Of a stretch of 35,275 nucleotides of DNA, positions 15,356 through 21,807 are shown piece after piece; the stretch's first letter is position 1, and each line of letters begins with the position of its first letter. The notes below the pieces were generated by a model. It had not been told where the DNA came from and searched no databases. It worked only from the letters and a program-made list of their open reading frames with translations. Origin of the DNA: Candidatus Flavonifractor merdipullorum (lineage in GTDB: Bacteria > Bacillota > Clostridia > Oscillospirales > Oscillospiraceae); assembly GCA_019114165.1 (NCBI GenBank), contig DXGA01000105.1, forward strand, positions 1-35,275, written 5' to 3'. The translations under genes were made by a program, and so were the position numbers.

Positions 15356-16831
15356 TCATGCGCTTTTCTGTCCGGGAGAGGTCTCTTCTACGGTGGAATC
15401 CAGTGGGAGCACCATGGACATCCGGGTGCCCACCCCCTCCCAGGAGGTCACCTCCAGCCACCCGCCGTGGCGCTCCACGATCCACCGGGCAATGGACAGG
15501 CCCAGGCCTGTGCCTCCGGTCTGGCGGGTGCGGGACTGATCGGTCCGGTAGAACCGGTCAAAAATGTGGGGCAGGTCGTCGGCTCTCATGCCCTGTCCCT
15601 CGTCCTGCACCGACAAAATGGCCGCGCCGTCCCGTATCCCGGCAGAGAGGATGATCTTTCCACCGGCAGGGGTATACTTGACGCTGTTGTCCACCAGAAT
15701 GCGCAGTGCCTGTTTGGTCAGGCCGATATCCGCCCGCACCGGCACCGGCAAGCTCCACTTTCCCTCAAAGACGTGGGTCTTGTCGATCATCTCGGTTTCG
15801 CGGAATACCTCGCCCGCCACTTCGGTCAGGTCGAAGAGCTCCAGCTCGATGTGCATGGAGTCGTTGTCTCCCCGGGCCAGGAACAAAAGCTGCTCCACCA
15901 GTTCTTTCATGGACGCCGCCTCCTGCCGGATGGCGTCGATGGCCTCCTGCCGGGTCTCCGGGTCATCCTTGCCCCAGCGGTCCAGGAGATTGGCATAGCC
16001 CTGGATGACCGCAATGGGGGTACGCAGCTCATGACTGGCGTCGGAGACAAAGCGCATCTGGGACCGATACGCCTCGTTGATACGGTCCAGCATGGCGTTG
16101 ATGGCGGAAGCCAGGGTTTGCAGCTCCTTCTGGGTGCCCTTTACCGAGATCCGCTCGTCCAGATGGGTGGCGTTGATCTGATCCAGCTTTCCGGCCAGGG
16201 CACGCAGCTCTTCGGGGGACATCTGGTCGGCGTGGCCCAACCGGCTGGCAGCGGCGGCCAGTTCCTGAATGGGCCGGAGGGTTTTCCGGATGGTTCCGGC
16301 ATTTTTGAAGAGGTTACAGATGAGGCTGATCACCTGACAGACCATCATGATCTGAAGGGCCGCCGTCATGACCCGCACCGGACCGTTGATGTCCAGGGTA
16401 ATGGCATATGGCGTGCCGCTGCTGTCGGAGAGTTCCACCGTATAGGAAGCGCGGTTCACCGTCAGTCCGTCCGGGGTGAGTCCGCCGCCAAAATCAATGG
16501 TATGCTTTGCCTCTTCCAAGCCTTCCAGGGGCGTGAAGAAGGGGTAGTAAAACCCTTGGGTGGGACGGTCCAGGGCGGTCACGGTGTAATCTCCCGCCGC
16601 CATCCAGACCGTGGCCTCGGCGGAGGGCACTCCCCGCTCCTCCACCAGCGCGGCAATGTCGGCACACTGGTTTTCGCTCCACACCATCAGCCCGCCGAAG
16701 GCCAGCACCGAGAGAAGCAGATCCATAAACACATAGATCCCCAATAACCGGAGAAACAGCCGGGAATTGAGCCGCAGCACAATGGAGGACTTGATCCGTC
16801 CCACGGTGTTTTCCTTCTTTTGTCTGGACAC
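15356..16831 (-). CDS. HAMP-containing sensor histidine kinase
   Basis: FVSDASHELRTPIAVIQGYANLL H-box; LRILVDNSVKYTPAGGKI N-box; GTGLGLSIARWIVERHGG. GTG start at 16831 with GGGGGAGG RBS. Confidence 0.93.
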   Translation of the reverse strand: MSRQKKENTVGRIKSSIVLRLNSRLFLRLLGIYVFMDLLLSVLAFGGLMVWSENQCADIAALVEERGVPSAEATVWMAAGDYTVTALDRPTQGFYYPFFTPLEGLEEAKHTIDFGGGLTPDGLTVNRASYTVELSDSSGTPYAITLDINGPVRVMTAALQIMMVCQVISLICNLFKNAGTIRKTLRPIQELAAAASRLGHADQMSPEELRALAGKLDQINATHLDERISVKGTQKELQTLASAINAMLDRINEAYRSQMRFVSDASHELRTPIAVIQGYANLLDRWGKDDPETRQEAIDAIRQEAASMKELVEQLLFLARGDNDSMHIELELFDLTEVAGEVFRETEMIDKTHVFEGKWSLPVPVRADIGLTKQALRILVDNSVKYTPAGGKIILSAGIRDGAAILSVQDEGQGMRADDLPHIFDRFYRTDQSRTRQTGGTGLGLSIARWIVERHGGWLEVTSWEGVGTRMSMVLPLDSTVEETSPGQKSA

Positions 16832-16857
16832 GGAATATCCTCCCCCTTTCGGTTGCC

Positions 16858-17361
16858 TCACTGCCGGTTCAGCCACTGCTCCACCGGCGCAAGGGCCTCC
16901 GGCGCGACCCAGTTGGCCCCCTTTTTCATGGTCTCCAGCAGCAGCCGGGCGCGCGCGTCCTGGGCGGCCTTTTTCTCCATGGACTTGCCCATGGCGTTCA
17001 TCATCAGGCGGTAGATCCCTTTGACCTTCTGGTGGTCATACCCGCCCCGAAGATAGAAAAAGGGCATCTCCTCCAGCCGGTTTTCCTTGCGAATGTGCGC
17101 CATAGTCTCCCCTTCTTCGGGGGCCATGCCTACCGCGCACACCGCCCGGACGTCATACTGTCTTCTGGCCCGTCCAAGCCCCTTGATTTTGCCGGCGCAC
17201 ACCCAGCCCAGATAGATCACCGCCGTCCCTTTGGGCAGGTGCTCCCGGATGTCGTTGGTGTCATAGGCCGGGATCCGGGACATCCGGGCCAGCATGGAGG
17301 CATACCGGGCGGTGAAACCGGTATGGGATGTATATAAAATGGCAGTGGGTCGATGCTGCAT
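16858..17361 (-). CDS. Flavodoxin-domain protein
   Basis: MQHRPTAILYTSHTGFTARYASMLARMSRIPAYDTNDI...VIYLGWVCAGKIKGL resembles flavodoxin-like/HemG-type folds; RBS GGAGG upstream of ATG. Confidence 0.7.
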   Translation of the reverse strand: MQHRPTAILYTSHTGFTARYASMLARMSRIPAYDTNDIREHLPKGTAVIYLGWVCAGKIKGLGRARRQYDVRAVCAVGMAPEEGETMAHIRKENRLEEMPFFYLRGGYDHQKVKGIYRLMMNAMGKSMEKKAAQDARARLLLETMKKGANWVAPEALAPVEQWLNRQ

Positions 17362-17394
17362 GGCAAATGCCTCCTTTTCTTCTCCCGCGCCGCA

Positions 17395-17423
17395 TTGACA
17401 CGGGAACATAATGGGGTTACACT
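17395..17423 (+). promoter_or_regulatory. Sigma-A promoter of cupin gene
   Basis: TTGACA - 17 bp - TACACT. Confidence 0.75.
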
Positions 17424-17469
17424 GTACGCAAGAGCCGCTCTCAGCGGCAATTTTACGGAGGTGCTCAGT

Positions 17470-17799
17470 ATGATAATTCCTTATAACACCATGGAAGAGG
17501 AACATTTCCCCAATTTCAAGGGCGGCGAAGGCGCTTTAGAGGCCAAGATGTTCTTTGACGGACTCAACCGCATCCTGCATGGGCGGCTGGTCCCCGGCGC
17601 CTCCATCGGGCTGCACACCCACGAGACGGGCAGCGAGATCATCTATATCCTCTCCGGTACCGGCAAGGTGCTCTTTGACGACGGAGAAGAGACGGTCACC
17701 GCCGGTCAGTGCCACTACTGCCCCAAGGGTCACACCCACAGTCTCATCAACAACAGCGACGCGGACCTGGTCTTCTTCGCCGTGGTGCCCGAGCAGTAA
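17470..17799 (+). CDS. Cupin domain protein
   Basis: GASIGLHTHETGSEIIYILSGTGKVLFDDGEETVTAGQCHYCPKGHTHSLINNSD; RBS CGGAGGT. Confidence 0.92.
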   Translation: MIIPYNTMEEEHFPNFKGGEGALEAKMFFDGLNRILHGRLVPGASIGLHTHETGSEIIYILSGTGKVLFDDGEETVTAGQCHYCPKGHTHSLINNSDADLVFFAVVPEQ

Positions 17800-17801
17800 A
17801 C

Positions 17802-18485
17802 TCAGCTCTCCCGCAGCACATAGCCCACGCCGCGGACGGTGTGGATGAGCTTGATGCCGAAAGGCTCCTCCAGCTTGGCCCGGAGAAAGCGGATATAGAC
17901 GTCTACCGCGTTGGTCTCCCCCACATAGTCATAGCCCCACACATGGTCCAGCAGGGACTCCCGGGTGACCACCTTTTCCTTGTTCTCCAGAAGGTAGTGC
18001 AAAAGGTCGAATTCCCGCCGGGTCAGCTCCACCGGCGTCTCGCCCACCGTGACGGTGTGCCGCTCGGTGTCCATGGTGAGGACGCCGGCGGTGAGGAGCG
18101 CGCTGTGGTTTTGCACCGCCGTCCGTCCTTTGCGCAGGGCCGCCCGGATGCGGGCCAGTAATTCCTCGATGGCAAAGGGCTTTGTGATGTAGTCGTCGGC
18201 GCCGGAATCCAGCCCGGCCACCTTATCCACCACCGTGTCCCGGGCGGTGAGCATGATGACCGGCAGGTCGCTTTCCCGCCGCAGACGGCGCAGCACTTCC
18301 ATTCCCGACAGAGCGGGCAGCATGATATCCAGTAAAACCAGGTCAAAATTGCCGGAGAGCGCCTTTTCCAGGCCGCTCCGTCCGTCAAAGGCTTTTTCCA
18401 CTTCATAGCCCTCATAGCGCAGCTCCAGCTCCACCATGCGGGCCAGTTTTTCCTCATCCTCCACCAGAAGGATCCGCTCTGCCAT
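17802..18485 (-). CDS. OmpR/PhoB-family response regulator
   Basis: ILLVEDEEKLARMVELELRYEGYEV, LVLLDIMLP, ADDYITKPF, C-terminal winged helix ...IHTVRGVGYVLRES. Confidence 0.95.
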   Translation of the reverse strand: MAERILLVEDEEKLARMVELELRYEGYEVEKAFDGRSGLEKALSGNFDLVLLDIMLPALSGMEVLRRLRRESDLPVIMLTARDTVVDKVAGLDSGADDYITKPFAIEELLARIRAALRKGRTAVQNHSALLTAGVLTMDTERHTVTVGETPVELTRREFDLLHYLLENKEKVVTRESLLDHVWGYDYVGETNAVDVYIRFLRAKLEEPFGIKLIHTVRGVGYVLRES

Positions 18486-18524: not shown

Positions 18525-19100
18525 TTATGTTTTTCCGCCGCTCCGCCGGACCTGGTCCTTCATGTCCTCCACGGTGTCCGACATACTGTTCATGGCGTCG
18601 TTCAGGTCCTTGCGGCCCAGATCGGGGCCGGAAAACTGATACCGGCACCCCAAAAAGAGTCCCATGATGAGTAACGGCACCGTGATATAAAAGACACAGA
18701 TCACCGCAATGATGAGGATGAGCAGCGGCATGGAGGTCAACAGCTTTCCCTGCCGCCATACCTCGAAGCGGTTATGGGTGGACGGGTCCAGGGCATGGAA
18801 AAGAGCGCTGAACAGCTCCTTGACGCTCTCCCATAACCCGTTCCATCCGCCGCTCCGGGTCCCTTGCGCCTCATTATATCCGGCCGTCTCTTTTCCGGGC
18901 GCGGAGGGCGGTATGTTAGCCCCCGGACGGGTGGAGTAGGTCCCGCCGCTTCCCGGCGTCCTGGTCTTTCCCCGCCGCTCCAGATCAATGAGAGCGTCCA
19001 GCAAATCGCCGTTGCTGCGCTCCAGCGCCGCCTTGGCCTCTTCATAGGTGACGTCCGCCTTTTCCCGCAGACGTTCCACATCTTCCAGCGTAACCGCCAT
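18525..19100 (-). CDS. DUF4342-like protein with N-terminal UBA-like domain and C-terminal TM segment
   Basis: MAVTLEDVERLREKADVTYEEAKAALERSNGDLLDALIDLERRG; hydrophobic LLTSMPLLILIIAVICVFYITVPLLIMGLFLG. Confidence 0.75.
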   Translation of the reverse strand: MAVTLEDVERLREKADVTYEEAKAALERSNGDLLDALIDLERRGKTRTPGSGGTYSTRPGANIPPSAPGKETAGYNEAQGTRSGGWNGLWESVKELFSALFHALDPSTHNRFEVWRQGKLLTSMPLLILIIAVICVFYITVPLLIMGLFLGCRYQFSGPDLGRKDLNDAMNSMSDTVEDMKDQVRRSGGKT

Positions 19101-19291: not shown

Positions 19292-20905
19292 TTACTTTTC
19301 GTAAAGGGCCTGGGCGATGTTGAGGGCATGGTCCAGAATACGCTCGATATCCGTGAGGATCTCGCTGTACAGGATGCTCACCTCGGGATCGGTCTTGCCG
19401 GCCCGCATACGCTTGATCTGGGCGGTGCGGTAACGGCTGTTCTTGTCGTCGCTGTCCGCCTCCAGCACGGCCACAGTGGCCAGATTGCGCTTTTTCTCGG
19501 CCTCTCCCTCTTCGGTGAAGTCGATGGCGCCCAGCGCGTGGGTGGCAAGAGTGCGCAGCTTCACCAGCTCTTCGGTGGTCTCCTCGTCCATGTACAGGTT
19601 CCGCTTCTCCAGCTGCTGGAGATACTCGGCCATGTTCATGGCGTGGTCGCCGATGCGCTCGATGTTGCCGCAGACGATGAGCAGACGGTTGAGCCGGTCG
19701 GAATCGGTCTCCGACATCTCGCGGATGGAGATGTGGCTGACGCAGCGGGTGATCTCGGCGTTGTTCAGGTCGATCTGGTCTTCCTGCTTGGCCACTTCCT
19801 CCAGCTTCTTCTGGTCCCGATCCAGCAGGGCGTCAAAGGCCATTTCCACGTTCTTGCAGGCCATCTGGAACATGACGTTTTCCTGCTTCTTCAGGTCGCT
19901 CAGGGCGATGGAGGTGGAGCCCATGCGCACGGAGTCGGCGAAGCTGTGCTCCTTGCCGTTCTCGCCCTTATCGGGCAGGATGCGGCAGGCAGCGGCAGCC
20001 AGCAGGTTACCGGCGGGCAGCAGAATAGCGGTGGTGACCACGTTGAAGATCACATGGGTAATGGCGATTTGGCTGACCACGTTGCCGGGGATCAGGTTCT
20101 GAATCAGGGAGACAAAGGGGGTGAAAATGCAGATCAGGGTAAAGATCACCGTACCGATGACATTGAACATCAGGTGGATGACGGTGGTGCGCTTGGCGTT
20201 GAGATTGCCGCCCAGCGCAGCGATGACGGCGGTGATGCAGGTGCCGATGTTCTGTCCAAAGAGGACGTAGACGGCGCTGTCCAGACCGATGACGCCGGTG
20301 CTGGCCAGGGCCTGAAGGATGCCGATGCTGGCCGAAGAACTCTGGATGATGGCGGTAAAGACCGCGCCTACCAGGATGCCCAGCAGCGGGTTGGCGGAGA
20401 AGCGGGTGAGCAGATCGATGAAGGGCTGATACTCCTGGAGGGGCGCCATGGAGGAGCTCATCAGCTCCATGCCGATGAAGAGGATGCCCAGGCCGGCGAT
20501 GATCTGTCCGACGCAGGTCACCTTCTGGCTCTTCTTCATCATCATGATGACTACGCCCACAAAGGCAATGATGGGGGCAATCAGGCCAATGTCCAGCGCG
20601 ATGAGCAAGCCGGTCACCGTGGTTCCGATATTGGCGCCCATGATGACGCCCACGGCCTGGCCCAGGGTCATCAGCCCGGCGTTGACGAAGCCCACCACCA
20701 TGACGGTCGTGGCCGATGAGCTCTGGATGACGGCGGTGATGCCGGCGCCCACCAGCATCCCCAGGAAACGGTTGGAGGTCAGCTTTTCCAAAATGGATTT
20801 TAGTCGGTCGCCTGCGGCCACTTCCAGGCCGCCGCTCATCAGCTGCATGCCATAGAGGAACAGGGCAAGGCCGCCGAAGAGCATGAAAATGTCTTCTAAC
20901 TGCAT
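19292..20905 (-). CDS. Na+/phosphate cotransporter family protein with PhoU-like C-terminus
   Basis: GLALFLYGMQLMSGGLEVAAGDRLKSILEKLTSNRFLGMLVGAGITAVIQSSSATTVMVVGFVNAG, second QSSSASIGI repeat, helical C-terminus. Confidence 0.95.
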   Translation of the reverse strand: MQLEDIFMLFGGLALFLYGMQLMSGGLEVAAGDRLKSILEKLTSNRFLGMLVGAGITAVIQSSSATTVMVVGFVNAGLMTLGQAVGVIMGANIGTTVTGLLIALDIGLIAPIIAFVGVVIMMMKKSQKVTCVGQIIAGLGILFIGMELMSSSMAPLQEYQPFIDLLTRFSANPLLGILVGAVFTAIIQSSSASIGILQALASTGVIGLDSAVYVLFGQNIGTCITAVIAALGGNLNAKRTTVIHLMFNVIGTVIFTLICIFTPFVSLIQNLIPGNVVSQIAITHVIFNVVTTAILLPAGNLLAAAACRILPDKGENGKEHSFADSVRMGSTSIALSDLKKQENVMFQMACKNVEMAFDALLDRDQKKLEEVAKQEDQIDLNNAEITRCVSHISIREMSETDSDRLNRLLIVCGNIERIGDHAMNMAEYLQQLEKRNLYMDEETTEELVKLRTLATHALGAIDFTEEGEAEKKRNLATVAVLEADSDDKNSRYRTAQIKRMRAGKTDPEVSILYSEILTDIERILDHALNIAQALYEK

Positions 20906-20951
20906 TTCTCTCTTTCTCCTTCTCGGCCGGGCAGGACCGGCATCCCGATTT

Positions 20952-20990
20952 TGTAAAAAATGGGTATTGTCTTTGTATTTCTTTTGTAAA
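20952..20990 (-). promoter_or_regulatory. Pho-box-like array upstream of the Na/Pi cotransporter
   Basis: Minus strand TTTACA-AAAGA-AATACA-AAGAC-AATACC-CATTT-TTTACA: four 6-mers with exact 5-bp spacers. Confidence 0.6.
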
Positions 20991-21093
20991 ATACCTGCGT
21001 CTTAATTATTACAAATTTTCCCCATTCCTGCAATCCCTTTTTCTCGGACAAAAGAGAGAATTTTTTCCCTGTGGGAAGAACAGTTCTGTAGGT

Positions 21094-21807
21094 TCAGTCC
21101 TCCCCGCCGGAGGGCTGGCCGCCTCTGGGCTTGTCCAGCGGGTCGATCCACCCCGCCATTTCGGCGGGCAGCGCCTCCCGCACCGCCACGCAGCGGCAGA
21201 TGGGCATTCCCTGATGGTGGAATTTCTCTTCATAGTCGGTCATGATGCCGCAGACGCCGTCCCTGTGCAGGTCGCGGGTGACCTGCTCCAGCCGGAAGCC
21301 CGCCTTGGGAAACTGAAAGAGGGACCACTCAAACAGGTCCTGATTGTCGGTCTTCATATGGATCTCGCCCTTTTCCGGCAGGATCTGCCGGTAACGCATC
21401 AAAAAGTCCGTGTGGGTCAAACGGCGCTTGGCGTGGCGGTTGGAGGGCCAGGGATCGCTGAAATTCAGGTAAATGCGGCTGACCTCGCCGGGCGCGAAGT
21501 ACGCGGGCAGACGCTCGGCATCGGCGTCGATGAAGCGGACATTGGCAATGCCCTGCTCATTGGCCCGCTCCATGGCAATGACCATGGCGTCGGCCACCCG
21601 CTCGATGGCCACGAAAAGCACGTCCGGCTCCGCCGCCGCCGTCTCTACCGTAAATCGTCCCTTGCCGCAGCCGATCTCCAGACGAATCTCCCGGGCCTCC
21701 GGCATTTCGTCTTTCCAATGGCCCCGCATGGACGCCGGGTCGGGGATGAGCATGGCGGCACAGCGCTCCATCCGGGGCGCCAGGTTGGGTTTTTTTCTCA
21801 TTCTCAT
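21094..21807 (-). CDS. trmB: tRNA (guanine46-N7)-methyltransferase
   Basis: IRLEIGCGKGRFTVETA, IYLNFSDPWPSNRHAKRRLTHTDFLMRYRQIL, LHMKTDN-like motif. Confidence 0.95.
   Translation of the reverse strand: MRMRKKPNLAPRMERCAAMLIPDPASMRGHWKDEMPEAREIRLEIGCGKGRFTVETAAAEPDVLFVAIERVADAMVIAMERANEQGIANVRFIDADAERLPAYFAPGEVSRIYLNFSDPWPSNRHAKRRLTHTDFLMRYRQILPEKGEIHMKTDNQDLFEWSLFQFPKAGFRLEQVTRDLHRDGVCGIMTDYEEKFHHQGMPICRCVAVREALPAEMAGWIDPLDKPRGGQPSGGED

Follow-up and report, generated by a model that had tools for sequence, protein, structure and literature searches.

The window analyzed here, a 35,275-nt stretch of the genome of Candidatus Flavonifractor merdipullorum, carries the Na+/phosphate cotransporter gene nptA on its minus strand, preceded by a trmB-type methyltransferase gene. 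The space between the two genes holds a predicted promoter, followed by a leader in which four hexamers are arrayed in tandem. The features are as follows.

19292..20905, minus strand: nptA, Na+/phosphate cotransporter with a C-terminal PhoU domain, 537 aa (Pfam PF02690 and PF01895; TIGR00704)
20906..20998, minus strand: predicted nptA 5' leader, deduced from the conserved promoter and holding the entire array
20916..20921, minus strand: ribosome-binding site AAGGAG, read from the sequence
20926..20941, minus strand: leader hairpin GCCGG-TCCTGC-CCGGC, just 5' of the ribosome-binding site; same place, other sequence, in seven species
20952..20957, minus strand: array unit 4, TTTACA, 6/6 matches; CTTACA and 2 bp out of phase in the closest relative, Pseudoflavonifractor phocaeensis (L007)
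20963..20968, minus strand: array unit 3, AATACC, 3/6 matches, without the leading TT
20974..20979, minus strand: array unit 2, AATACA, 4/6 matches, without the leading TT; negative on the family matrix
20985..20990, minus strand: array unit 1, TTTACA, 6/6 matches to the genus Pho half-site; kept in L007
21005..21010, minus strand: predicted -10 AATAAT with extended -10 TG and a 17-bp spacer to the -35; CATAAT or AATAAT with TGn in 7/7 genus members and the outgroup
21028..21033, minus strand: predicted -35 TTGCAG; TTG[CA]A[GTA] in other genus members, Heteroruminococcus and Anaerofilum
21094..21807, minus strand: upstream neighbour, trmB-type methyltransferase gene, which adjoins nptA in sister species too

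The sequence-only reading of this stretch had placed the array upstream of an NptA/PhoU-like phosphate transporter, and this identification was borne out by the presence of Na_Pi_cotrans and PhoU domains. No TTTACA pair precedes the second NptA-PhoU paralogue of the genome (G000:C16:21970-23595), although some related genomes do have such a pair before their paralogues. On the 3' side of nptA, a response regulator and a histidine kinase are encoded (15356-18485, minus strand), an arrangement found only in the window and P. phocaeensis among the genus members compared. The same side also contains a gene for a 191-aa protein (18525-19100, minus strand) with a hydrophobic segment and no Pfam match. 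The N-terminal part of this protein bears a weak likeness, short of the TIGR00264 cut-off, to the UBA-type domain of the nascent-polypeptide-associated complex. Hairpins ahead of the ribosome-binding site occur in the nptA leaders of all seven species (the window and L007-L012), with stems that vary (GCCGG/CCGGC, GCGGC/GCCGC, GCGGTAAA/TTTACCGC); judged from these sequences, the leader hairpin is possibly an mRNA stability or translation element.

The array itself is a confirmed observation: its letters, strand, exact steps and distance of 47-85 bp to the ATG were all correct when the sequence was read again. The minus strand from 20990 to 20952 reads TTTACA-AAAGA-AATACA-AAGAC-AATACC-CATTT-TTTACA, that is, four hexamers in tandem direct repeats at exact 11-bp steps, located at -85 to -47 relative to the nptA start (ATG at 20905). 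The resemblance to the Bacillus subtilis PhoP consensus TT[ACT]A[CT]A, previously suggested for the array as a whole, holds for the outer units 1 and 4 and breaks down for units 2 and 3, which begin with AA and miss TTTACA by 2 and 3 of 6 positions, respectively. Scored over its four units, the array reaches 19/24, the highest value in the whole 35-kb window on both strands. With hexamer and period preset, both being fixed independently from other genes, the 188-bp intergenic region was shuffled 20,000 times with its dinucleotides preserved and never scored as high; 1 in 3,000 shuffles equaled the score when any period from 8 to 15 was permitted. In the real intergenic sequence, period 11 yielded 19, versus 12-16 for the remaining periods from 7 to 17. 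A search of the 2.07-Mb, 83% complete genome for the degenerate form of the array (WWTACM x4, at most 3 mismatches) returned no second copy apart from shifted self-overlap, and exact three-unit TTTACA arrays occurred genome-wide at chance level (3 vs 2 in a reversed control).

As defined by sequence comparison, TTTACA-N5-TTTACA is the Pho box of the genus. Ten genus genomes contained 17 exact pairs, compared with 3 for the reversed pattern, and 13 of the 17 precede Pho-type targets, namely six nptA-family genes, six pstS genes and one ppx gene (ppx-ppk). In the genome under study, pstS is preceded by the near-exact form TTTACG-N5-TTTACA, and the pstS promoter of most genus members can be written as TTTACA-N5-TTTACM-N17-TTTACA-N9/10-TATACT. 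The third TTTACA of this promoter is conserved at L036, L049-L051, L053, L055 and L056, where it follows the second after a fixed 17-bp gap, 9-10 bp before TATACT, and so stands outside the simple 11-bp register. The ppx gene of the same genome carries TTTACA-GAAAG-TTTACC (G000:C184:5985-6001), and a pair or near form was present in 6/8 genomes, this one included. Such boxes thus occur at ppx in most genus members (L263-L270), with ppk next in the single locus that was read through (L074). Together with the boxes of sister-species nptA genes described below, these occurrences at pstS and ppx gave a positive answer to the earlier proposal that the same element be sought at pst and other Pho genes.

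The candidate regulator is encoded on contig C205, where genes for a two-component pair come directly after pstS-pstC-pstA-pstB-phoU; the best models for its response regulator and histidine kinase are TIGR02154 PhoB and NF046044 PnpS, both matched below the equivalog cut-offs. The response regulator and kinase of the window were rejected as the first choice for the phosphate pair; the pst operon has a pair of its own, and their synteny with nptA is confined to two species. The array might still serve another OmpR-family regulator. One example is the response regulator at 17802-18485, whose gene lies 0.8 kb 3' of nptA; its completeness, together with that of the kinase (15356-16876), in just the two species with a leader array is in keeping with such a role. 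However, the pair was not found near nptA in other sister species, and pstS and ppx have the same hexamer as the array, so that we regard this assignment as very improbable.

We also surveyed 129 upstream regions of NptA homologues in the order, in which same-strand TTTACA-like pairs peaked sharply at a distance of 11 bp (63 vs a mean of 9.9, SD 3.6), with a smaller peak at 22 bp (28 pairs). The 11-bp peak persisted among 185 non-redundant NptA loci, with 36 loci having it far from the start and 24 near it, compared with 1-7 at other distances. A half-site spacing of 33 bp showed no enrichment in the order-wide NptA upstream regions (13 vs 9.9). These distributions indicate that phosphate control of NptA via a TTTACA element is, across the whole group, well supported, in agreement with the activation of Staphylococcus aureus nptA by PhoPR at low phosphate (PMC13170248).

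An alignment of upstream sequences from seven genus species revealed a core promoter of the form TTG[CA]A[GT]-N17-CATAAT with an extended -10 TG, which Anaerofilum shares; its copy in the window (TTGCAG, 17 bp, AATAAT) is found 5' of the entire array. With the start site placed approximately 7 nt past the -10, the array occupies 14 to 52 nt past the -10, or approximately +9 to +47 of the predicted mRNA. A second promoter 3' of the array was considered and rejected, no -10-like sequence being present there. If the array were a classical activating Pho box, array-bound PhoB~P would recruit RNA polymerase under phosphate starvation, as might be expected from a hexamer and step identical to those of pstS, whose box ends approximately 10 bp before the TATACT -10, and from the PhoPR-dependent activation of nptA in S. 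aureus (PMC13170248). The array, however, is followed by no -10, the 46 bp from array to ATG being taken up by the G+C-rich hairpin and the ribosome-binding site, and the conserved promoter is located on its other side. This role is accordingly improbable.

Five sister species carry TGTAAA units, i.e. TTTACA on the other strand, in 11-bp steps upstream of the -35, at -73/-62/-51 or -72/-61/-50 from the end of the -10. Of these units the third is weaker, and two species have it in degenerate form or displaced by 1 bp from the step. Two of the sister species have the stop codon of trmB overlapping the first TGTAAA unit, which places this upstream box at the extreme edge of the intergenic region. 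The same five species also possess a leader half-site exactly 11 nt past the -10 (TGTAAA in four, AGTAAA in the fifth). The window species and P. phocaeensis are without the upstream box and have TTTACA, with the strand reversed, 13-14 nt past the -10. Since the NptA proteins of these two species are sisters (support 1.000; deeper nodes less well supported, at 0.63-0.96) and Anaerofilum, outside the genus, has an upstream box, the loss is derived. P. phocaeensis, the closest relative with 91% protein identity, retains the first TTTACA; its last unit is CTTACA, 31 rather than 33 bp from the first, and the middle units are not conserved. Leader sites were seen at other loci as well, where a simple score or visual inspection was used to assign the promoters: TGTAAA-N5-CATAAA-N5-GGTAAA at L008 and L010, three units at L013 and two at L014 past the -10, and exact pairs directly past TATAAT at L133 and L139.

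We then evaluated the array with a family matrix built from 38 pairs, excluding the window and P. phocaeensis; as the training pairs were picked for closeness to TTTACA, the matrix is strict. Units 1 and 4 scored +14.5 and +13.0, and units 2 and 3 scored -6.1 and -6.0. The best adjacent pair of the array (11.0) ranked first in the window, yet fell under all 38 training pairs (11.8-30.1); the pstS pair of the same genome scored 22.4. The array thus shares with Pho boxes the 11-bp tandem repeats, a motif found at other Pho genes of the genome and a PhoB/PhoR-type pair in the genome, and departs from them in per-unit consensus, in adjacent-pair quality and in position, activating Pho boxes lying upstream of or over the -35. 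Because its units and its promoter position do not conform, we do not class it as a canonical Pho box.

A functionless relic, or chance, is a serious rival explanation, and a possible one. Under this explanation, the upstream box was lost, the A/T-rich leader merely contains two TTTACA words and near misses, and nptA left phosphate control in this lineage. The failure of the middle units, the loss of phase in the sister species and the disappearance of the upstream box from both the window species and P. phocaeensis are all consistent with this possibility, and many Escherichia coli PhoB sites are transcriptionally inert (PMC10294691). Decay or chance agrees poorly, however, with the score reached in 0/20,000 shuffles, with a period of 11 that stands out alone and with the recurrence of leader half-sites among relatives. 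It is far less probable, and indeed the least probable of the explanations considered, that the sequence acts as RNA, as a leader hairpin or an A-rich ribosome standby site with incidental hexamers. Pairing of GTATTT with AAATAC is possible across units 1-2, and all seven species have a further hairpin ahead of the ribosome-binding site, but leader folding did not go beyond that of shuffles (z -1.25), and an RNA function leaves the 11-bp step unexplained. No Rfam match was found in the window.

We tentatively favor the reading of the array as a divergent PhoB/PhoP operator in the nptA leader, 3' of a conserved sigma-A-type promoter and probably damping nptA, to which we assign a probability of about 0.45. 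The regulator would be the phosphate response regulator (PhoB/PhoP) of the genome, encoded in the pst operon. PhoB~P may bind the outer TTTACA sites cooperatively, with assistance from the degenerate middle units, and when bound at approximately +9 to +47 it could hinder promoter escape or elongation. Expression of nptA would then be damped at high PhoB~P, with activation likely in relatives that have the upstream box. The operator is favored by a score beyond chance at period 11, a half-site established independently at other genes of the genus, the pair encoded in the pst operon, the order-wide 11-bp peak and the repeated occurrence of leader sites. The negative scores of units 2 and 3, a best pair below the training range, the loss of phase and middle units in L007 and the unenriched 33-bp spacing count against the operator.

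The direction of control is suggested by position and analogy. In B. subtilis, PhoP can repress Pho promoters with PhoP sites within coding regions (PMC13403408), and tagAB is repressed by PhoP~P (PMC6232261). In Sinorhizobium meliloti, low-affinity Pit is among the genes most repressed under phosphate stress (PMC8829014). Given these precedents and the leader position of the array, damping by PhoB~P would be its most likely action. The activation of S. aureus nptA by PhoPR at low phosphate (PMC13170248) points the other way. The phosphate-starvation control originally proposed for nptA was right in kind and is partly supported for this gene, as the same element or a near form of it is found at pstS, ppx and sister nptA genes. 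Its details were mistaken or lacked support: the array is not a four-unit consensus box and lies in the leader, not upstream of the promoter, the upstream box of the relatives is absent here, and the closest relative does not keep the phasing. For these reasons, plain activation under phosphate starvation from the array is unlikely. Phosphate-linked control of nptA is plausible.

The array can be compared with several known systems. The half-site of the PhoB PHO box is CTGTCA. The array has in common with that box its direct repeats, the 11-nt step (PMC4415409) and PhoB/PhoR genes, here in the pst operon, whereas its half-site is TTTACA and it lies outside the -35 region. PhoP operators of B. 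subtilis (TT[ACT]A[CT]A, approximately 5-bp spacers) share with it the outer-unit hexamer, the 11-bp step and the tandem direct repeats; in the array, in contrast, 2/4 units miss the consensus, and it is a candidate site, known from sequence, in an untranslated leader. The upstream boxes of Pseudoflavonifractor/Flavonifractor sister nptA genes have the same gene, half-site and step, but they run on the opposite strand with up to three units, stand upstream of the -35 and are absent in the window species. The nptA of S. aureus likewise encodes an NptA with a PhoU domain under phosphate two-component control, and differs in being activated at low phosphate (PMC13170248). The literature searched, for the most part outside subscription journals, yielded no description of a PhoP box for either Oscillospiraceae or Clostridium.

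A consensus Pho box, TTTACA-N5-TTTACA, and its target genes can now be given for a group of gut Oscillospiraceae, and its occurrence at ppx would tie polyphosphate metabolism to the same control. The family may further possess a dual PhoB arrangement, with an activating box upstream of the -35 and an operator in the leader, such that nptA flipped from starvation-induced to starvation-repressed when the lineage leading to the window species and P. phocaeensis lost its upstream box. We consider this scenario unlikely; if true, it would mean that the sign of regulation of one gene is reversed between sister species. With its box upstream in some species and in the leader in others, this transporter gene offers a natural comparison for asking how the position of an operator determines whether PhoB activates or represses.
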